64,000 bases of DNA, taken from assembly GCA_029262235.1 (NCBI GenBank), contig JAJCZU010000002.1:558001-622000 (forward strand), given 5' to 3'. The position numbers were made by a program, and so were the translations under genes. The notes below the pieces were generated by a model. The model ran no database searches, had not been told where the DNA came from, and saw only the letters and a list, made by a program, of their open reading frames with translations. Below, one piece after another: positions 830 through 16,362 of this stretch (the stretch's first letter is position 1; every line of letters begins with the position of its first letter). The DNA comes from Candidatus Eiseniibacteriota bacterium. Its GTDB lineage: Bacteria > Orphanbacterota > Orphanbacteria > Orphanbacterales > Orphanbacteraceae.

Positions 830-2252
830 CGATCTGGACCTCTTTCCGGGAGACGCAAATCGTGCGGGCGGGCCCGGGTCCGGTGGCGAATCCGGGCGCG
901 ATGCGCACAGGCCGCTCGCGGATCGCTACAGGCCGCACACATGGGAAGAGTTTGCGGGGCAGGAGCATCTCGTGGGTGAGAACGGCCCCGTGCGGCGTCT
1001 GGTTGCCGCCGGCCGTCCCTTTTCGTGCATTCTCTGGGGGCCGCCCGGTACAGGGAAGACGACGCTGGCTCGTCTGATCGCGACGTCGTCCGGCGCGCGC
1101 TTTCTCGAATACTCGGCCGTTCTTTCGGGCGTGAAGGAGATCCGCATCGCGGTGGAAACGGCGCGCGTCGAGCGTTCGCGAAACGATCGTGCCACGATCC
1201 TGTTCGTCGACGAGATTCATCGCTTCAATAAATCACAGCAGGACGCGTTTCTTCCTCACATGGAGAACGGAACGATCTATCTGATCGGGGCGACGACCGA
1301 GAACCCGTCGTTCGAAGTGAATGCCGCGCTTCTCTCGCGAACGCGCGTGTTTTCACTGAATCCGCTGGAAGAGAGCGAGTTGCAGTTGATTCTCGATCGT
1401 GCGCTGGCGCTGGCGGGCAAGGAGGCCGGGACCGACGCCGCGGTTCTCGATGAGGATGCGCGCGCATGGCTCGCGCAGTTCGCTTCGGGGGATGCGCGCG
1501 CGCTGCTTTCGCTTCTCGAACTCGCCATCGCAGGGACCCGTTCGTCCGGCGGCACGGATGAGGAAAGCGAAGGCGCGGGCGAAGCACGCTCTTCGATTAC
1601 GGTGGAGGAACTGCAGCGCATCGCCGGCAGACGCACGCCTCTCTACGACAAGAGCGGCGAGTCGCACTTCAATCTGATATCGGCGCTCCAGAAAAGCATT
1701 CGCGGGAGTCACGCCGACGCCGCGCTCTACTGGGCCGCACGCATGATGGAAGCCGGCGAGGATCCGCTGTATCTGCTTCGCCGCCTGATCCGCATCGCGA
1801 TGGAGGACGTCGGGCTCGCCGTTCCGAACGCGCTCCGTTACACGCTCGACTGCGCCGAAACGTATCATCGCCTCGGATCGCCCGAGGGTGATCTCGCGAT
1901 CGCGCAGGCTGTGCTCTTCCTCGCGCACGCGCCGAAATCGAACCGCGTGACGGCCGCATGGAGCGCGGCGTGCGAGGCCGCGCGGGCGCATCCCGACGGC
2001 GCCGTGCCGCTTCACCTGCGGAACGCGCCGACGAAGCTCATGAAAGGGATGGGGTACGGACGCGATTACGCCTACGACCACAGCGATCCTGAAGGCGGGC
2101 TGGCGCAGAATTACTTTCCCGAGGGAATGGAAGGGACACGATTCTACGAACCGACGGACCGCGGCTTCGAAAAGGATCTGCGCGGGAAGCGGGAGCAGTG
2201 GGAGAAGGCGAGGAGGGAGGCGAGGCGACGTGCCCCGGAGGACGACAGGTAG
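819..2252 (+). CDS. rarA: Replication-associated recombination protein A (RarA/MgsA-type AAA+ ATPase)
   Basis: This 477-residue protein is an AAA+ clamp-loader-like ATPase that acts at stalled replication forks. Walker A GPPGTGKT lies at residues 74-81 and Walker B with DEIH at 131-134. The sensor-1 region (GATTENPS) and the C-terminal MgsA-type segment (KGMGYGRDYAYDH) are clear, and the length is close to family normal. I chose ATG 819 over longer in-frame starts because it overlaps the preceding stop and gives the short acidic N-terminus usual in RarA. It is followed after 9 bases by a convergent gene, with no obvious terminator hairpin between them. Confidence 0.95.
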   Translation: MNDNDLDLFPGDANRAGGPGSGGESGRDAHRPLADRYRPHTWEEFAGQEHLVGENGPVRRLVAAGRPFSCILWGPPGTGKTTLARLIATSSGARFLEYSAVLSGVKEIRIAVETARVERSRNDRATILFVDEIHRFNKSQQDAFLPHMENGTIYLIGATTENPSFEVNAALLSRTRVFSLNPLEESELQLILDRALALAGKEAGTDAAVLDEDARAWLAQFASGDARALLSLLELAIAGTRSSGGTDEESEGAGEARSSITVEELQRIAGRRTPLYDKSGESHFNLISALQKSIRGSHADAALYWAARMMEAGEDPLYLLRRLIRIAMEDVGLAVPNALRYTLDCAETYHRLGSPEGDLAIAQAVLFLAHAPKSNRVTAAWSAACEAARAHPDGAVPLHLRNAPTKLMKGMGYGRDYAYDHSDPEGGLAQNYFPEGMEGTRFYEPTDRGFEKDLRGKREQWEKARREARRRAPEDDR

Positions 2253-2261
2253 CGCCCTCGA

Positions 2262-2951
2262 TCAGTCTGCGAATGCGAAGCGGACGATGAAATAGAACGC
2301 GGCGACCGCGTCCTTCCAGCCGATCTTCTTTCCCTCCGCGTAATCGCGGCCGTCGTACGTGATCCCGATTTCGTACACGCGGCATCTTCTGCGCGCGATT
2401 TTTGCCGTAATTTCCGGCTCGAAACCGAATCGATTGGCACGTAAAGGAATCGATTTCAAAATGTCCGTTTTGAAGACCTTGTAGCAGGTTTCCATGTCCG
2501 TCAGATTGAGGTTCGTGAACATGTTGGAAACCAGCGTCAGAAGCTGGTTGCCGACGAAGTGCCAGAAGAGGTGTACCCGGCCCGCTTCGCCCCCTTTGAA
2601 ACGGGAACCGTAAACGACATCGGCCCTGCCGTCGATAATAGGAGCGATGAGGCGAGGGTACTCGCGCGGGTCGTATTCGAGGTCGGCGTCCTGCACGACC
2701 ACGAGATCGCCCTGCACCTGGGGGATGCCGGTCCGGATCGCGGCCCCTTTTCCCTGGTTCACTTCATGGTGAAACACGCGCACATTGTCGTATTGCTGCG
2801 CGATTTTCTCCAGGATGGCCTTCGTATTGTCCGACGAGCAGTCGTTCACCATTACGAGCTCCTTGTCGACGTCCACAGCCTGGACGCGGGCCACGAGCTC
2901 TTCGACCGTCCGCTCTTCGTTATAAACGGGAATGATCACCGACAGGCGCAA
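2262..2951 (-). CDS. Family 2 glycosyltransferase, DPM1/polyprenyl-phosphate type
   Basis: This 229-residue GT-A enzyme transfers a sugar from a nucleotide donor, probably to a polyprenyl phosphate. It opens with the typical LSVIIPVYNE strand, has VNDCSSDNT and NQGKGAA motifs and a QDADLEYDP segment carrying the metal-binding DxD-type site. It has no C-terminal membrane domain, so it resembles the short, soluble dolichol-phosphate-mannose-synthase-like forms. The start is TTG (complement of 2949-2951), supported by an AAGGAG ribosome site at 2960-2965. A promoter and a palindrome lie upstream. Its lipid-linked product could feed the GT-C enzymes elsewhere in the window, but that is inference. 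Confidence 0.88.
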   Translation of the reverse strand: MRLSVIIPVYNEERTVEELVARVQAVDVDKELVMVNDCSSDNTKAILEKIAQQYDNVRVFHHEVNQGKGAAIRTGIPQVQGDLVVVQDADLEYDPREYPRLIAPIIDGRADVVYGSRFKGGEAGRVHLFWHFVGNQLLTLVSNMFTNLNLTDMETCYKVFKTDILKSIPLRANRFGFEPEITAKIARRRCRVYEIGITYDGRDYAEGKKIGWKDAVAAFYFIVRFAFAD

Positions 2952-2972
2952 GAATCAGTCTCCTTGATGGTG

Positions 2973-2990
2973 CGTTCCGCAGGCGGAACG
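2973..2990. promoter_or_regulatory. 18-bp palindrome in the leader of the GT2 gene
   Basis: CGTTCCGC and GCGGAACG are perfect inverted 8-base arms separated by AG. They lie between the minus-strand promoter and the glycosyltransferase start, so they could be an operator or form a hairpin in the 5' leader RNA. Only the symmetry is seen; no binding protein is recognised. Confidence 0.4.
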
Positions 2991-3011
2991 GGGCCATGAA
3001 TCACGGTCCAG

Positions 3012-3041
3012 AGGGTATCGGCCCGGCCGCTTAAGTGTCAA
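3012..3041 (-). promoter_or_regulatory. Sigma70-type promoter for the GT2 gene
   Basis: On the minus strand a perfect TTGACA (complement of 3036-3041) is followed after 18 bases by TACCCT (complement of 3012-3017). The predicted start near 3005 gives a leader of about 50 bases containing the 2973-2990 palindrome. Confidence 0.6.
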
Positions 3042-3060
3042 TGAAAAGTAGGAGTTACAC

Positions 3061-4407
3061 TTGACAATCACGAACCCGCTCCGTACGGTCCGAAATGTGA
3101 AAGCACTCCTGTCCATATCTGTCTGCCTCGCGTCCGCTCTCCTGTGTTTCGGCTGCCGGTCGCATTCAGGCAACACCTCGAATGCCGCGGCCTCCGAGAT
3201 GCCGGTTGCGGAGGCGCCGGCCCTCTCGATGCTGCTTCCGGCCGTTGCCGGCTCGCTCGAAAGCGGGGAGACGCCGATGGGCTGGTTTCTGCAGCACGGA
3301 ATCGAGCACAACACGGCCGGCGGGATACTCGAGGCGCTCGGTGACCTTCTCCCGATGTCCCGGTTCCGGCCCGACGACGAACTGACGCTCGAATTCGACG
3401 AAGCGGGTGAGGCCATCCGGTTCCGGGTGGATCGCCGCAACCGCTCGCAGTATGTCGTGGAAACGGACGGGAGCGCCTGGAGCGCCCGTGAGCAGGACCC
3501 TGTCTATCGAAAAGGAATCGCGCGGTTCGAAGGGACCGTTCAAAGCTCCCTCTGGGAATCTCTTCTCCGCGAGGGCGCCACACCGGCTCTCGTCATGAAG
3601 TTCGCGGATGTGTTCGCCTGGACGTTCGACTTTCTGACGGACTGCCGCGGCGGGGATCATTTCGAGATTCTCGCGGAGACCCTGTATGAAGGGGACGAGT
3701 TCGTCGGTTTCGGCGATATTCTCGCTGCGGACTACATCGGCGAACGGGGCGAAGTCGATGCCGTGCGCTTTACGCTCGCTTCGGGCAAGGACTCCTATTT
3801 CGCGCGCGACGGAGAATCGCTCCAGAAGATCTTTCTGAAGTCGCCGCTGAACTTCCGACGCATTTCGAGCGGGTTTACTCATGCCCGCTTTCATCCCATC
3901 TTGAAGAAGTACCGTCCTCATCTCGGCATCGATTACGCGGCCGATACCGGAACGCCGGTCGTCGCGATCGGCGACGGAGTCGTGACACGCGCGGGCTGGA
4001 ACGGCGGCTTCGGTAATTTCGTGGAGATCAAACATAGCCGCTCATACATAACCTGGAGCGGACATCTTTCGAAGTACGGCAAGGGAATCAAGAAGGGAAC
4101 GCGGGTCAAACAGGGCCAGATCATCGGATACGTAGGCTCGACAGGGCTCTCGACGGGACCGCATCTCGATTTTCGCATGAAGCACAACGGGAAGTTCGTG
4201 AACCCGCTCAAGATCGCCGTGCCTTCCGCAGACCCCATCCCTGCGGAGGAGCGCACCGATTTCCGGATCGTCTCGCGACAGCTATTCGCGGCGCTCGGCG
4301 CTCTTCCGAACGGACCTCTCGAGGCCGGCTCGGAACAGGTTTGCCAGCTTCTGGCGTCCGCCTGCATGCCGCATGCGACGGCCGGCGGTGACCGGATCGT
4401 CCCCTAG
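3061..4407 (+). CDS. M23-family peptidoglycan metallopeptidase, exported
   Basis: This 448-residue exported protein has a C-terminal LytM/M23 domain and probably cleaves peptidoglycan cross-links in the periplasm. A hydrophobic signal segment at residues about 13-29 ends near a Cys, so it may be a lipoprotein, but the lipobox is imperfect. The middle resembles the substrate-excluding N-terminal domains of MepM/Csd3-type enzymes. The zinc site shows HLGID and GPHLDFR; the second His of the usual HLH motif is Asp here. The TTG start is supported by AGGAG six bases upstream; GTG 3097 is a weaker alternative. apgM and lnt follow closely on the same strand. Confidence 0.88.
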   Translation: MTITNPLRTVRNVKALLSISVCLASALLCFGCRSHSGNTSNAAASEMPVAEAPALSMLLPAVAGSLESGETPMGWFLQHGIEHNTAGGILEALGDLLPMSRFRPDDELTLEFDEAGEAIRFRVDRRNRSQYVVETDGSAWSAREQDPVYRKGIARFEGTVQSSLWESLLREGATPALVMKFADVFAWTFDFLTDCRGGDHFEILAETLYEGDEFVGFGDILAADYIGERGEVDAVRFTLASGKDSYFARDGESLQKIFLKSPLNFRRISSGFTHARFHPILKKYRPHLGIDYAADTGTPVVAIGDGVVTRAGWNGGFGNFVEIKHSRSYITWSGHLSKYGKGIKKGTRVKQGQIIGYVGSTGLSTGPHLDFRMKHNGKFVNPLKIAVPSADPIPAEERTDFRIVSRQLFAALGALPNGPLEAGSEQVCQLLASACMPHATAGGDRIVP

Positions 4408-4426
4408 GAATTTACAGGAGACTGCG

Positions 4427-5623
4427 ATGCCTCACGACCTCGTGCCCGGACTCGTCCAGGGTGGCGACAAGATCATTCTGCTCGTTCTCGACGGCCTCGG
4501 CGGACTTCCCGACCGTTCCGGCAAGACCGAACTCGAAGCGGCTCAGACCCCGAACCTCGATCGCCTGGCGAAAAAGGGGGCGCTCGGCCTCATCGACCCC
4601 GTTGCGCCCGGGATCACGCCCGGGAGCGGGCCGGGACATCTCGGCCTGTTCGGCTACGATCCCCGGGAGTACGACATCGGCCGGGGCGTGCTTGCGGCTC
4701 TCGGCATCGGGTTCGATATCCGGGAATCCGACGTGGCGGCGCGTCTCAACTTCGCGACGTTCGACGCGGCCGGAAACGTGACGGATCGCCGGGCGGGCCG
4801 GATCGAAACCGAGGAATGCGAACGCCTCGTGCAGCTGCTGGACAAGATCGAACTTTCCGGAGTCGAAACGTTCGTCCGCCCCGTGAAAGAACATCGTGCG
4901 GCCGTGATCTTTCGCGGGCCAGGGCTCGGTGAAAACGTGAACGATTCGGACCCGCAGGCGGTCGGGGTCGGTCCGCGTGAAATCGTCGGCGACGACGCCG
5001 AAAGCAAAAAGACAGCGGGCCTCGCGAACGCGTTCATGGTAGCGGCGCGAGAGGCGCTGGCGGGGGAGGAGCGCGGCAACGGCGTCTTGATGCGCGGATT
5101 CGCGCGCTACCAGAAGATCCCTTCGTTCCAGACCCGGTTCGGGCTGAATGCCCTCGCAATCGCGATGTACCCGATGTACCGGGGGGTGGCGAAGCTCGTC
5201 GGTATGGAGCCGCTCGACGTGCGGGGGAAGATGACCTCGCTTTTCGAGGCTGTTACGGCCCACTACAATAATTACGATTTCTTTTTCGTGCATGTCAAAG
5301 AGACCGACAAGTATGGGGAAGACGGCGACTACGACGCGAAGAAGAAGGCGATCGAACAGGCGGATCGACTGATCGCGCGCTTCGACGATCTCCCGGACAA
5401 GGTGCTCATCGTGACGGGTGATCATTCGACGCCTTCGCAGATGAAGGCGCACTCGTGGCATCCCGTTCCGCTTCTACTGAGCGGTCGCCGCGTGCGCCCG
5501 GATGCGACGACGCAGTTCGGGGAAGAGGCGTGCAGCCGCGGGAATCTCGGACGGTTTCCGGCGATCGAAATCCTGCCTCTGGCTCTTGCGAATGCCGGGC
5601 GTCTCATGAAGTACGGAGCCTAG
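4427..5623 (+). CDS. apgM: 2,3-bisphosphoglycerate-independent phosphoglycerate mutase, archaeal type
   Basis: This 398-residue enzyme interconverts 3- and 2-phosphoglycerate in glycolysis and belongs to the alkaline-phosphatase fold. The first metal-binding motif (VLDGLGGLPD, about residues 20-29), the GSGPGH nucleophile region (66-71) and the C-terminal GDHSTPS metal site are all present. Its length matches ApgM rather than the about 510-residue GpmI form. ATG 4427 is preceded by CAGGAG with six-base spacing, which is better than the upstream in-frame start inside the preceding gene. It sits 20 bases after the M23 gene and 4 bases before lnt, suggesting one transcript. Confidence 0.95.
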   Translation: MPHDLVPGLVQGGDKIILLVLDGLGGLPDRSGKTELEAAQTPNLDRLAKKGALGLIDPVAPGITPGSGPGHLGLFGYDPREYDIGRGVLAALGIGFDIRESDVAARLNFATFDAAGNVTDRRAGRIETEECERLVQLLDKIELSGVETFVRPVKEHRAAVIFRGPGLGENVNDSDPQAVGVGPREIVGDDAESKKTAGLANAFMVAAREALAGEERGNGVLMRGFARYQKIPSFQTRFGLNALAIAMYPMYRGVAKLVGMEPLDVRGKMTSLFEAVTAHYNNYDFFFVHVKETDKYGEDGDYDAKKKAIEQADRLIARFDDLPDKVLIVTGDHSTPSQMKAHSWHPVPLLLSGRRVRPDATTQFGEEACSRGNLGRFPAIEILPLALANAGRLMKYGA

Positions 5624-5627
5624 GTCC

Positions 5628-7190
5628 TTGCGCCTCGCGCCGGAGCCGGTGCTGCGGGCACTCATCCCGATTCTCGCCGGCGTCACAGCCACGATTCCGT
5701 TTCAAAACGGCGCCCCGGGAATGCTCGGCCTCGTCTGCCTTGTCCCGTTCGTTCTTCTCCTGCATGCGGAGCGCGAATCGCCACGTGGCTCCTTCCGCGT
5801 GGGGTACTGGTTCGGCGTCGGCTTTTTCGCGGCGCTCCTCTACTGGATCGCGCTTCTCGTCGACAGCGAAATCCCGATTCGGGGATTGACCGGCATCGGC
5901 TGGATCGTTCTCTCGCTCGTACTCGGCCTCGTCTACGCCCTGGCCGCGTTTCTCTCCTGTCTGCTGCGCCGTTTTCTGCCGGGCCCGGTCGCACTTGCTT
6001 TCGCGTGGGTCGCGCTCGACTACGGCCGCTCGCTCGGCCCGCTCGGTTTTCCATGGGGGTCGATCGGGTACGTGCTCGCGGACTATCCCACCTTGATTCA
6101 GATCGCGCGGTTCGGAGGGGTCGCTCTCGTTTCGTTTGCGGTCGTACTGACGAATGCGCTTGTTGCCGAGAGCATGCTCGCGCTGGTGCAGAGACGAAAC
6201 CGGCGCGTGCTCGGCTGTCTCGCCGGCGCGATTCTCGTGGTCGCCGTTCTCGGAATCGATGGCGTGACGAGGATTCGAACGGGTTTGCCGGAGTCGCCGC
6301 GCAGCATGCGCGTGGCGGCCGTCCAGCCGAATATTCTCGCGGAGGAAAAGTGGACGCCCGCGTTCAAGACGAAGTCGATCGATATCCTTACGGAGCTGAC
6401 CGCAGCGGCCGCCGCGGATGCAGGGGCCGAAGGCGACGCGTTCGATCTCGCCGTATGGCCTGAAACGTCCGTGCCCGTTTACGTGCGCCAGGAGTACTCG
6501 TATTACAAGCGCCTCTCCGAATTCGTGCGCGAGAACGACATCTCTCTTCTGTTCGGCTTTCCGAACGCGGAGTACGACCAGGACCGCGCTGATTACGTGT
6601 ACTACAACGCCGGACTCCTGCTCGCGCCTGACGGGAGCGAGGCGGGTGAGTATCGCAAGATGCATCTCGTTCCGTTCGGCGAAAGGCTTCCGCTCGAAGA
6701 CAAGTTCGAATGGATCGCGAACCTGGATCTCGGGCAGGCGAACTTCGCCCCGGGAACCGAAGCGAAGGTGATGGGGACGGCGGGAACCGGGTACTTCGGG
6801 ACGACGATCTGTTTCGAGGCGATCTTCCCCGCCGTGTGCCGGCCGTTCGTGACAAACGGCGCGGAGTATCTCGTGAACCTCACGAACGACGCGTGGTTCG
6901 GCATGACCGCCGCCCCCTCGCAGCACGCGGACATGGCACGGTTTCGCGCGATCGAGCTCGGCGTCCCGTTCGTGCGCGCGGCGAACACCGGGATCAGCTT
7001 CGTGTGTGATGCCTTCGGGCGCATCCTGAGCAAGGTTCCGCTCGGGGAATCGGGCGTGGCCGTGGCGACCATCAGCCCGTCCCGGAGCACGACTTTCTAT
7101 CGCAGCCACGGGGAGTGGTTCCCGCGCTCCGTTCTGGCGGGCACGCTCCTTCTGGGCGCCCTCGCGGCCTGGCGGGGCCGAAAGCTTTGA
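5628..7190 (+). CDS. lnt: Apolipoprotein N-acyltransferase
   Basis: This 520-residue inner-membrane enzyme adds the third acyl chain to the N-terminal Cys of lipoproteins, the last step before outer-membrane sorting. The N-terminal half (about 1-215) holds several membrane segments. The C-terminal nitrilase domain has the expected triad: Glu279 (WPET), Lys344 (YRKMHLVPFGE) and Cys395 (TICFE). Length is normal. The start is TTG, four bases after the apgM stop. Together with lgt at 26.1 kb it shows that the cell makes triacylated lipoproteins and so is a diderm. Confidence 0.95.
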   Translation: MRLAPEPVLRALIPILAGVTATIPFQNGAPGMLGLVCLVPFVLLLHAERESPRGSFRVGYWFGVGFFAALLYWIALLVDSEIPIRGLTGIGWIVLSLVLGLVYALAAFLSCLLRRFLPGPVALAFAWVALDYGRSLGPLGFPWGSIGYVLADYPTLIQIARFGGVALVSFAVVLTNALVAESMLALVQRRNRRVLGCLAGAILVVAVLGIDGVTRIRTGLPESPRSMRVAAVQPNILAEEKWTPAFKTKSIDILTELTAAAAADAGAEGDAFDLAVWPETSVPVYVRQEYSYYKRLSEFVRENDISLLFGFPNAEYDQDRADYVYYNAGLLLAPDGSEAGEYRKMHLVPFGERLPLEDKFEWIANLDLGQANFAPGTEAKVMGTAGTGYFGTTICFEAIFPAVCRPFVTNGAEYLVNLTNDAWFGMTAAPSQHADMARFRAIELGVPFVRAANTGISFVCDAFGRILSKVPLGESGVAVATISPSRSTTFYRSHGEWFPRSVLAGTLLLGALAAWRGRKL

Positions 7191-10004: not shown

Positions 10005-11303
10005 ATGATTGCCCGATATACACGACCCGCCATCGCCGCCGTCTGGAGCGATGAAGCGCGCTTCGGCCACTGGCTCACGATCGAAGTCACCGTTGCGGCC
10101 GCCATGGCGAAGCGGGGCGAGGTGCCGGCCGAGGCCGTGCGCGTGATCCGCGAGAAGGCCCGCTTCGACGTCGATCGCATTCTGGAGATCGAGAAGCGCA
10201 CGCGTCATGACGTGATTGCGTTCCTCGAGTGCGTCGAAGAGAACGTCGGGCCCGAAGCCCGCTGGCTTCATCTCGGCATGACGTCGTCCGATCTGCTCGA
10301 TACGGCGCTGGCGCTCCAGATCCGGGAAGCCACGAACATTCTGCTCGCCGAAGGAAAGCGGCTCGCGCAGGCGCTCTCCGAGCAGGCGATCCGCTACAAG
10401 AAGAAGGTGGCGATCGGACGGACGCACGGGATCTATGCGGAACCGATCACTTATGGCATGAAGTTCGGCCTCTGGAAGGCGGAAGTCGATCGCGGGCTCA
10501 CGCGTCTCGAAACGGCAGCCGACGAAGCGTGCACGGGCAAGATCGCGGGCGCGGTCGGGACGTTCGCCCATCTCGATCCTGCGATCGAAGACGAAGTGCT
10601 GGGCGAACTCGGCCTGCAGGCCGAACCGATCGCGAGCCAGATCGTGCATCGAGACAGGCACGCGCATTTCATGACCGCAATCGCGCTGCTCGGGGCCTCC
10701 CTCGAGAAGATGGCGACCGAAGTGCGTGCGCTGCAGAGAAGTGACGTGCGCGAAGTGCAGGAGCCGTTCCGGGCGGGGCAGAAGGGCTCGAGCGCGATGC
10801 CGCACAAGCGAAACCCGATCGTCTGCGAACGGATCACGGGAATGGCGCGCCTGCTGCGCGGCAACGCTCTCGTTGCGATGGAAAACATCGCGCTCTGGCA
10901 CGAACGCGACATCTCGCACTCTTCCGTCGAGCGCATCATCATGCCCGACTCGACGATGATTCTCGACTACATGCTGTTTCGTTTCGGCGACGTCATTCGC
11001 GACATCCGCATTCTCGACGACGGCGTCGAAAAGAATCTGGCGGAGGCGCGTTCGACCTACGGCTCCCAGGCGGTTCTGCTCGCGCTTGCCCGCAAGGGAT
11101 TCACGCGAAAGGATGCCTACGAAATGGTGCAGTCGCGCGCGATGCGCGCACTCGAGGAAGGCGGCGAACTCGAGGACATCCTGCTTCAGGACGAAGAAGT
11201 CCGTGCCCATCTCTCCGATGACGAGATCCGGGCCGCATTCGACATCGAAAAACACGTGCGCCATGTCGACACGCTGCTGGCGCGCGCAGGAGTGAGCGAA
11301 TGA
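10005..11303 (+). CDS. purB: Adenylosuccinate lyase
   Basis: This 432-residue lyase of the fumarase/aspartase superfamily removes fumarate twice in purine synthesis: from SAICAR to give AICAR and from adenylosuccinate to give AMP. The superfamily signature GSSAMPHKRNP is intact, as are the TSSDLLDT and GRTHG active-site segments. Length matches the short bacterial PurB type. It opens a block of purine genes (purB, purL, purQ, PurS-like, purF) joined by overlaps; its stop overlaps the purL ATG by four bases. Confidence 0.95.
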   Translation: MIARYTRPAIAAVWSDEARFGHWLTIEVTVAAAMAKRGEVPAEAVRVIREKARFDVDRILEIEKRTRHDVIAFLECVEENVGPEARWLHLGMTSSDLLDTALALQIREATNILLAEGKRLAQALSEQAIRYKKKVAIGRTHGIYAEPITYGMKFGLWKAEVDRGLTRLETAADEACTGKIAGAVGTFAHLDPAIEDEVLGELGLQAEPIASQIVHRDRHAHFMTAIALLGASLEKMATEVRALQRSDVREVQEPFRAGQKGSSAMPHKRNPIVCERITGMARLLRGNALVAMENIALWHERDISHSSVERIIMPDSTMILDYMLFRFGDVIRDIRILDDGVEKNLAEARSTYGSQAVLLALARKGFTRKDAYEMVQSRAMRALEEGGELEDILLQDEEVRAHLSDDEIRAAFDIEKHVRHVDTLLARAGVSE

Positions 11304-13616: not shown

Positions 13617-14435
13617 ATGGGAATCATCGGTGTCATTCAGTTTCCGGGTGTGAACTGCGAGGTGGAAACCGCGCGGTCGATTCGTGGGTTGGGCTACCGG
13701 GCGGAGGTTGTACGTTGGAATCAAAGCGAAGGACTTTTGGACCGATACGCCGGGTTCATTCTGCCAGGCGGGTTTTCTTATCAGGACCGGGTGCGCGCCG
13801 GGGTGATCGCAGCGAGGGAGCCGATCGTGGAAACTCTCTGCGAAGCGGCGGAGCGGGGAATGCCGATTCTCGGAATCTGCAACGGGGCTCAGATCCTGGT
13901 CGAAGCGGGCCTCGTACCGGGAAAGACGAACCGGGTCGAGGCGGCGCTGGCACCGAATCGTAACGGTGTCCGCACCGGCTACAGCTGCCAGTGGGTCTGG
14001 CTTCGGGCCGACGGGAGCAACTCGTTTCTCGCGAACACGTTGACGGACGGCGCGGTGATTCCGATGCCGATGGCGCACGCGGAAGGGCGTTTCGTCTCAC
14101 GCGACCCGGCGGTCTTCGACGAGTTCGCCGAGCGGGGACAGATTCCGCTTCGCTACTGCGAGCCGGACGGCACGATCGCCACCGAGTGGCCGTCGCTTCC
14201 GAACGGAGCGCTGCAGGCCGCGGCCGCTGTCAGCAATCCGGCCGGGAACGTAGTGGCGATGATGCCGCATCCCGAACGGGCGGCTTACCTGCATCAGGTA
14301 CCCGACTGGGTTCCGGTGTGGGGCGATCGGAAACGGGCGCTCGTAAACGGCGACCCCACCGGCCTGTTCGAAGCCGGCCCCGGCGCGAAGATTCTCGAGG
14401 CGTTCTGTCTGGCGGTGGAGAGGGGGGTGCAATGA
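13617..14435 (+). CDS. purQ: FGAM synthase glutaminase subunit PurQ (long form)
   Basis: PurQ is a class I glutamine amidotransferase that supplies ammonia to PurL. The nucleophile is Cys88 in the GICNGAQ elbow, and the His/Glu pair is in MMPHPERA. At 272 residues it is about 45 longer than typical stand-alone PurQ (about 225) and closer in size to the glutaminase domain fused in large-type PurL. ATG 13617 follows the purL stop by one base. The stop overlaps the next gene's ATG. Confidence 0.94.
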   Translation: MGIIGVIQFPGVNCEVETARSIRGLGYRAEVVRWNQSEGLLDRYAGFILPGGFSYQDRVRAGVIAAREPIVETLCEAAERGMPILGICNGAQILVEAGLVPGKTNRVEAALAPNRNGVRTGYSCQWVWLRADGSNSFLANTLTDGAVIPMPMAHAEGRFVSRDPAVFDEFAERGQIPLRYCEPDGTIATEWPSLPNGALQAAAAVSNPAGNVVAMMPHPERAAYLHQVPDWVPVWGDRKRALVNGDPTGLFEAGPGAKILEAFCLAVERGVQ

Positions 14436-14971
14436 GTCGAAAGCTGTCGCTTCTCGTATGGCATCGCGTGGAAGATCTGATCGCAACCACAGCAGAAGAA
14501 ACGATCCGCAATCGCCACGAACAGGGGCAGAAGCTCGAGACGCTGGCGCGCGAGGAGCACTGGCGCTTCACGTTTGACGGCAACGCCTTCCCTGCGCGCC
14601 TGGATGATCTGGTCTCGCGCTCGCGCCTGTTCGTCAATCCCAACAAACATGCGTTTCGTATCGTGGACGAACCGGAGGACGGACGCACACACGCCGGCGC
14701 AATCGTGCGCGTGCGGAATCGCGAAGATATCGAAGGGGCGACGGCCATGCACTCGCTCCGCGCGCTTGCCGGAACCGGAGATCTCACGGATGTCGTGTTC
14801 GAGACCGTCTGGTTTCTGCGTCTCGCGCCTTCTGTCGAACCCGAGGACGTGGCATCGCTCGTCGAGTCGTTTGCCGTTACGCATACGCGGCATGACGGCC
14901 TTCTCGTGAACCCCCATTTTCAAGACTGGTCGCTGACTGTTGTACCCGGGACCCAGGGAGCGCGGGCATGA
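14432..14971 (+). CDS. Tandem-duplicated PurS-like protein (probable FGAM synthase structural subunit)
   Basis: This 179-residue protein lies between purQ and purF with ATGA overlaps on both sides. Its second half (about residues 88-171) follows the PurS plan: an amphipathic segment with AMHSLRAL, a DLTDVVFE strand and a closing LLVNPHFQDWSL, like the LLANPVIEDYxVEV end of PurS. The first half (about 1-80) ends with a similar RLFVNPNKHAFRIV. The two Asn-Pro pairs are 91 residues apart, close to one PurS length. I infer two fused PurS units, equivalent to the PurS dimer that bridges PurL and PurQ. The first repeat is divergent and the assignment rests on pattern reading, not an alignment score. 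Confidence 0.65.
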   Translation: MSRKLSLLVWHRVEDLIATTAEETIRNRHEQGQKLETLAREEHWRFTFDGNAFPARLDDLVSRSRLFVNPNKHAFRIVDEPEDGRTHAGAIVRVRNREDIEGATAMHSLRALAGTGDLTDVVFETVWFLRLAPSVEPEDVASLVESFAVTHTRHDGLLVNPHFQDWSLTVVPGTQGARA

Positions 14972-16362
14972 GACACTGGAAAGAGGAATGCGGAGTCGTC
15001 GGGATCGCGGGAACGGATTGCGCGGCGGAGCTCGTGTCGCTGGCCCTCTACGCGCTCCAGCATCGAGGGCAGGAGGGGTCCGGGATCGTGAGCTTCGAGG
15101 ACGGCGCTCTCAAGGCGCACCGCGGGCTCGGCCTCGTAAGCGACGTCTATACGGCTGACGCTCTTGCGGGACTGGACGGCACCATCGCCGTCGGGCACAA
15201 CCGCTATTCGACTACCGGCTCGTGCTCTGCCGAGAACCTCCAGCCGATCGTGGCCCATTCGCGCGGGTCGGCGATCGCGCTTTCGCACAACGGCAATCTC
15301 GTGAACGCGCTCGAACTGCGCAATTCGCTCGAAGATCAGGGCGCCATCTTTCAAACGACCATGGATTCCGAAGTCATCGTGCACATGATGGCCCGCTCCC
15401 GCCAGCACGCGTTCGAGGATCGCGTGCGGGAAGCGCTGGGCCGTGTGGTCGGCGCGTATTCGGTCATTCTCTCCGACGGGCAGAAGCTCGTGGGCGCGCG
15501 TGATCCCCGCGGATTCCGGCCGCTCTGCATCGGGAGGCTCGGCGACGCGCACATCCTCGCATCGGAATCGTGCGCGCTCGACCTGATCGGGGCGGACTAT
15601 CTGCGCGAGGTGGAGCCGGGCGAGCTCGTCGTCATCGAGGGCTCGCGAATCTGGTCGATCCCGCCCGTAGAGAAGGTCGATCCGAAACACTGCATCTTCG
15701 AATACATCTATTTCTCGCGTCCCGACTCCGTCGTGTTCGGGCACGCGGTCGATCCGGTGCGCCGCCGTCTCGGGCAGACGCTGGCGGAAGAGCATCCGGC
15801 CGACGCGGACCTCGTCATCGCCGTGCCCGACTCGTCGAACTCCGCCGCGCTCGGGTTTGCGGAACGCTCGAAGATCCCGTTCGAAATCGGGCTGATTCGC
15901 AATCACTATGTCGGGCGTACGTTCATACAACCCACGCCGCGCCTCCGCGACCTGCGCGTCAAGATCAAGTACAACGCGGTGAAGGACGTGCTGAACGGAA
16001 AGCGCGTGGTTGTGGTCGACGATTCGATCGTGCGCGGAACCACGATGAAAAAACTCGTGAAGATGCTGAAGAAGGCGGGCGCGTCCGAAGTCCATCTCCG
16101 GATCAGCTCCCCGCCGATCCAGCACCCGTGCTATTACGGGATCGATACGCCGACGCGGAACGAACTTCTCGCGGCGACGCACACGATCGAGGAGATCCGG
16201 CGCTATCTTGAAGTGGAGGACGTCGAGTATCTCTCGCGCGAAAGCCTGCTCCGGGCCGCCCCGCAGGGGCTCGGGTACTGCACGGCCTGCTTTGATGGCG
16301 AGTATTCTATCCCCGTCGAGGGGGAGCATACGAAAGAGATTCTGGAACGCAATCCCGTTTGA
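14968..16362 (+). CDS. purF: Amidophosphoribosyltransferase
   Basis: PurF makes phosphoribosylamine from PRPP and glutamine, the first committed step of purine synthesis. The Ntn-hydrolase nucleophile would be Cys8 after removal of a seven-residue propeptide (cleavage before CGVVGIAG). The PRPP-binding loop is VVVDDSIVRGTT. Candidate 4Fe-4S ligands of the Bacillus-type enzyme are visible: KHCIFEY, QHPCYYG and GYCTACF. At 464 residues the length is normal. It ends the purine block and is followed at once by a Rho-independent terminator. Confidence 0.96.
   Translation: MRHWKEECGVVGIAGTDCAAELVSLALYALQHRGQEGSGIVSFEDGALKAHRGLGLVSDVYTADALAGLDGTIAVGHNRYSTTGSCSAENLQPIVAHSRGSAIALSHNGNLVNALELRNSLEDQGAIFQTTMDSEVIVHMMARSRQHAFEDRVREALGRVVGAYSVILSDGQKLVGARDPRGFRPLCIGRLGDAHILASESCALDLIGADYLREVEPGELVVIEGSRIWSIPPVEKVDPKHCIFEYIYFSRPDSVVFGHAVDPVRRRLGQTLAEEHPADADLVIAVPDSSNSAALGFAERSKIPFEIGLIRNHYVGRTFIQPTPRLRDLRVKIKYNAVKDVLNGKRVVVVDDSIVRGTTMKKLVKMLKKAGASEVHLRISSPPIQHPCYYGIDTPTRNELLAATHTIEEIRRYLEVEDVEYLSRESLLRAAPQGLGYCTACFDGEYSIPVEGEHTKEILERNPV

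Follow-up and report, generated by a model that had tools for sequence, protein, structure and literature searches.

A free-standing tandem PurS in the pur operon of a Candidatus Eiseniibacteriota bacterium

Here we report that the gene between purQ and purF in a pur operon of a Candidatus Eiseniibacteriota bacterium encodes a free-standing tandem PurS (PurSS), in which two PurS units are joined in a single chain. The operon is located in a stretch of 64,000 nucleotides (the window; positions 558,001 to 622,000 of contig JAJCZU010000002.1). Known complexes contain two PurS units per one PurL and one PurQ, and PurSS very probably acts as a covalent pseudo-dimer that replaces the PurS homodimer in a PurL-PurQ complex, with a PurL of a third deep lineage and a PurS duplication that was probably independent. 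The literature searched, where most subscription journals were absent, yielded no description of a natural free-standing tandem PurS; PurSS-PurL fusions have already been suspected in archaea.

Operon, tandem repeat and predicted fold

The genes are arranged in the order purB-purL-purQ-purSS-purF and are tightly packed (Table 1). The overlap between purB and purL is 4 bases, the ATG of purSS overlaps the stop codon of purQ (ATGA, 14432-14435) and its stop codon overlaps the start of purF (ATGA, 14968-14971); the two ATGA overlaps suggest translational coupling of purSS with both neighbors. PurL and the separate PurQ exceed the equivalog cut-offs of small-type FGAM synthase (TIGR01736 and TIGR01737), and the PurS-like, PurL and PurQ parts are encoded by three separate genes, not in the one chain of large-type PurL, so that the operon is of the small type, as the original prediction had stated. 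The TIGR01736 match starts at residue 13 of PurL, and the N-terminal extension of about 200 residues that is found in mdPurL is absent.

Table 1. Genes of the pur operon and features of the tandem PurS, with positions in the window.
Feature	Position	Strand	Evidence
purB, first of the run	10005..11303	+	ORF; PurB/adenylosuccinate lyase signature by eye; homologues in the same place in relatives' operons
purL, small type, 771 aa	11300..13615	+	TIGR01736, 648 bits (cut-off 525.75); third deep PurL lineage in trees
purQ, long form, 272 aa	13617..14435	+	TIGR01737, 202 bits (cut-off 177.8)
purSS, free-standing tandem PurS, 179 aa	14432..14971	+	ORF; PF02700 at family level; profile-profile comparison; AlphaFold2/Foldseek; conserved beside purQ
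First PurS unit, residues 1-84	14432..14683	+	hhalign to PurS profile, E 2e-7; beta-alpha-beta-alpha-beta in model
NPNKH motif closing first unit, residues 69-73	14636..14650	+	N69, P70, N71 and H73 invariant in A1; N69-K72 invariant in A3
Second PurS unit, residues 85-179	14684..14968	+	hhalign to PurS profile, E 2e-12; beta-alpha-beta-alpha-beta in model
NPHFQ motif closing second unit, residues 160-164	14909..14923	+	N160, P161, H162 and Q164 invariant in A3
purF, last of the genes covered	14968..16362	+	TIGR01134, 503 bits (cut-off 350)

The predicted reading frame of 179 residues was found exactly as described, together with its two closing motifs (LFVNPNKH and LLVNPHFQ), which are 91 residues apart (Asn69 to Asn160). 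The window protein, whole or in halves, matched no Pfam or NCBIfam model (PF02700 gave no match at E 10), and a direct sequence search of the PDB with this protein alone returned nothing of interest. PurS was reached only via family alignments and not via the window sequence itself. The alignments comprised nine sequences (A1; too diverse for the scan of the genome collection, for which A2 was used) and 28 family members (A3). PF02700 matches 24 of the 28 members of A3 (best E 1.4e-15) and is above cut-off in the genomes of four relatives; in one Zipacnadia relative, it matches twice within a single ORF (26.3 bits, with a cut-off of 22.2, and 20.4 bits). PurS chains (3d54_B, 1vq3) were also the top matches of the A3 profile among PDB sequences, at weak E values of 0.006-0.007.

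In profile-profile comparisons, the N-terminal and C-terminal halves matched each other with a score of 68.5 (E 5e-13). The N half matched the ordinary-PurS profile with a score of 40.1 (E 2e-7; 36.4 with default settings) and the C half with a score of 65.6 (E 2e-12; 66.0 with default settings), compared with a maximum of 17.8 among 120 column-shuffled controls. The suggestion that each half is PurS-like thus stood when the halves were checked separately.

The AlphaFold2 model of PurSS (pLDDT 92, pTM 0.86), computed without the loci retrieved by genome search, consists of two beta-alpha-beta-alpha-beta units with the PurS fold. In a Foldseek comparison with 350,542 PDB chains, the first 18 places were all occupied by large-type FGAM synthetases from Salmonella and human (about 1,280-1,300 residues), with a probability of 1.00, 166-176 aligned columns and moderate TM scores (0.48-0.56), followed by the single PurS structures 1vq3, 2yx5, 3d54 and 1twj at half length. 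Structure prediction of the protein alone, which had been proposed as a check, therefore gave a fold that matches the large-type enzyme along its full length and shares with it the presence of two PurS-like units per chain; the region matched is expected to be the N-terminal PurS-like part of the synthetases (PMC3815217). The two units within 179 residues, the profile scores and the predicted fold together uphold the claim of a covalent PurS-PurS protein. Members of the PurS family have about 80 residues and one unit per chain, and the protein was therefore filed as a tandem variant of PurS; its identification as a free-standing tandem PurS is confirmed.

Occurrence of the tandem and absence of a second PurS

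As anticipated, the search of the source genome (95.5% complete) with PF02700 yielded no match and hence no separate purS, although one may lie in the missing part. The same model detected no other PurS in six family members of the source genome or in 22 more tandem carriers, and was positive in 12 of 14 control genomes. Homologues with identities of about 26-48% are present in five genomes of the same family and in distant bacteria, and also in named MAGs, among them those of Candidatus Zipacnadia/Armatimonadota and WS1 and one from 'Eisenbacteria'. Of the 386 bacterial genomes sampled, 35 were matched by the A3 profile, and about 30 of them (about 8% of the sample, from about 20 families) are credible; three were discounted as weak or partial (G176, G215, G246), and the match covers one half only in G272 and G280. 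The order PurL-PurQ-tandem, or PurQ-tandem where purL was out of reach, was found in 21 of the 25 loci examined; in Zipacnadia, purQ adjoins the tandem gene in many loci, and purL is located elsewhere. Some long frames around the tandem ORFs (e.g., 567 aa in locus L080) were rejected as fusions: they contain no stop codon but overlap purQ in a different reading frame.

Other arrangements of these genes were also met. Locus L080 (genome G031; 3709-7180, + strand) encodes PurL and PurQ together in a single frame of 1157 residues without stops; a tandem PurS of the window type follows downstream as a gene of its own, as does purF, which is a two-chain layout of FGAM synthase. A 1230-residue PurSS-PurL-PurQ protein with the large-type layout is encoded in L093 (G092; 1548-5238, + strand); its PurL clusters with those of PurSS-PurL fusions (98/97), apart from classic large PurL, so that the complete fusion seems to have had more than one origin. 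In L110 (G076; 1994-3497, - strand), a single frame of 530 residues encodes a PurB-like protein that ends in a C-terminal PurS unit. A second kind of free-standing tandem PurS, each half of which is matched by PF02700, is encoded in loci L078, L085, L111 and L112; the gene directly precedes purL in L078 and L085, as if a PurSS-PurL fusion had never occurred or had been undone. A 161-residue frame just before purL in L090 (G035; about 6431-6914, - strand) resembles, by eye, a very diverged tandem PurS; it was detected by none of the profiles applied, and PF02700 found no PurS in genome G035.

PurL lineages, PurQ length and origin of the tandem

An unrooted tree was computed from 62 PurL domains of sampled genomes, all of them bacterial. 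The PurL of single-PurS loci formed a clade of 21 rows (support 98/92), and the window-type PurL did not join it, forming its own clade of 19 rows (100/100) beside it. A third group, across a 100/100 branch, contained classic large PurL together with the PurL of the PurSS-PurL fusions and of the other free-standing tandems. When the two halves of PurL were used to root each other, both halves gave the same three lineages as a trifurcation without order. These sequence trees place the window PurL in a third deep lineage, beside the single-PurS and the fusion/large lineages. The original prediction had also singled out the PurQ of 272 aa as unusually long, and the comparison agrees: counted from the start, PurQ has 259-286 aa in those of the 19 window-type loci where a start was found, versus 220-238 aa in 13 single-PurS loci. 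It has 261-263 aa in loci with the other kind of tandem and 257-268 aa in PurSS-PurL loci; among the loci compared, long PurQ occurs only where the PurS units share one chain.

In a tree of PurS halves (82 columns), both halves of the window kind joined each other (100/90), as did both halves of the other kind of tandem (97/97), whose lineage contains the large type. Forcing the N halves together gave a p-AU of 0.12, and forcing the C halves together a p-AU of 0.04, on the same 82 columns. One large PurL (L104) is hit at its N-terminus by the profile of the other kind (residues 3-205, E 2e-8), which ties this kind of tandem to the large type. Since the pairing is within the window kind and does not run between like halves of the two kinds, an independent duplication is favored; PurS was probably duplicated separately in the window lineage, in parallel to the large type, although 82 columns are few and the halves may have been homogenized. 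Of the proposal that the protein is an intermediate between the small and the large type, the architectural part holds; that it gave rise to the large type is unproven, and we do not favor this reading, given the deep PurL clade of its own and the grouping of halves by kind; the p-AU values do not reject the alternative firmly.

A different history for the same protein and function would make the window type a surviving step toward the large type, with one PurS duplication giving rise to all tandems, followed by fusion to PurL and later to PurQ. We consider this unlikely. In the unrooted PurL tree, the tandem and fused types do all fall to the same side of the branch that leads to single-PurS PurL (98/92), these types have the long PurQ in common, and scores between kinds are slightly higher for like halves (N-N 22.0, C-C 32.7) than for unlike halves (N-C 14.0, C-N 25.4). 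However, the halves within a kind are much closer (N-C 68.5 in the window kind, 99.8 in the other), they form clades by kind (100/90 and 97/97), and the paralogue-rooted PurL tree gives the three lineages no order.

Far less probable is a paralogue in the pur operon with another job, such as regulation or metabolite binding, next to a PurL that works without PurS. The fold type is frequent among small-molecule-binding domains and the window protein itself matches no PurS model, but the family-level PF02700 matches, the profile scores with their controls and the Foldseek ranking point to PurS, and so do the conserved position beside purQ and the lack of any other PurS among the matches. That a protein unrelated to PurS should resemble it by chance in two short motifs is hardly credible: despite the missing direct model match, the halves score 68.5 with each other and 36-66 with PurS, with controls of 17.8 or less, and the repeat is conserved in distant families.

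A further-reaching view, which we think likely, is that there are three ancient lineages of FGAM synthase and not two types, and that the window lineage made its own covalent PurS pseudo-dimer and lengthened its PurQ in parallel to the large-type lineage.

In the explanation that we favor for the function of the protein, one PurSS chain would stand in for the homodimer that PurS forms in the usual PurL-PurQ-PurS complex and would dock the long PurQ onto the small PurL, so that glutamine-derived ammonia would reach the FGAR site in a complex of 1:1:1 instead of 1:1:2. The first half carries NPNKH and the second NPHxQ; this divergence presumably arose because PurL and PurQ are contacted in two different ways, one of them retained by each half. 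We infer the formation of this complex, its stoichiometry and the division of labor between the halves; the operon and the absence of other PurS agree with a PurSS that would be part of the PurL-PurQ complex and needed for its activity.

Relation to known systems and significance

Each half of PurSS shares with PurS (PF02700, TIGR00302; Thermotoga maritima TM1244, 1vq3/3d54; Bacillus subtilis, 1twj; Methanocaldococcus jannaschii, 2yx5) the predicted fold, the closing NP motif and the operon, and purSS is the sole PurS-like gene found in its genome; it differs in its two units per chain and half-specific motifs, and the window protein is missed by curated models. In large-type PurL (1t3t, human 9n9w; PF18076), the PurS-like region at the N-terminus also has two units in one chain and provides the best full-length Foldseek matches, whereas PurSS is free-standing and unfused to PurL, its PurL is of a different deep lineage and the duplication was probably separate. 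Brown et al. (2011; PMC3261824) described PurL proteins of methanogens (mdPurL) that are extended at the N-terminus by about 200 residues and suspected a PurS role for this extension; five of the six archaea named there have no other PurS. This mdPurL and the bacterial PurSS-PurL fusions (L081, L083, L089 and others) likewise have PurSS alongside a PurQ that is a separate protein; in them, PurSS and PurL form one chain, whereas PurSS is free-standing in the window, and the PurL and PurS halves of the bacterial fusions, which the trees covered, are of another lineage. The other free-standing tandems (L078, L085, L111, L112; frames of about 160-187 residues) also have two PurS units, but PF02700 matches them directly, their halves are far from the window kind, and their PurL, where found, is in the PurSS-PurL/large lineage. 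The equivalence of the two PurS units with the large type is stated in PMC3815217, where a synthetic 'PurSS' row had to be constructed for the alignment.

Work on enzyme evolution has yet to explain how the small three-gene FGAM synthase became the single large enzyme of Escherichia coli and humans. The natural free-standing PurSS is a layout between the three-gene and the single-chain enzyme, and genomes that carry the window type would be scored as lacking PurS because curated models miss it. In a PurSS complex, each PurS half could be mutated alone, which is impossible in a homodimer. The window lineage, which is spread over many uncultured bacterial families, offers a case in which parallel gene fusion can be tested; if the independent origin is true, covalent pairing and specialization of PurS units would be a repeated evolutionary outcome in FGAM synthase.
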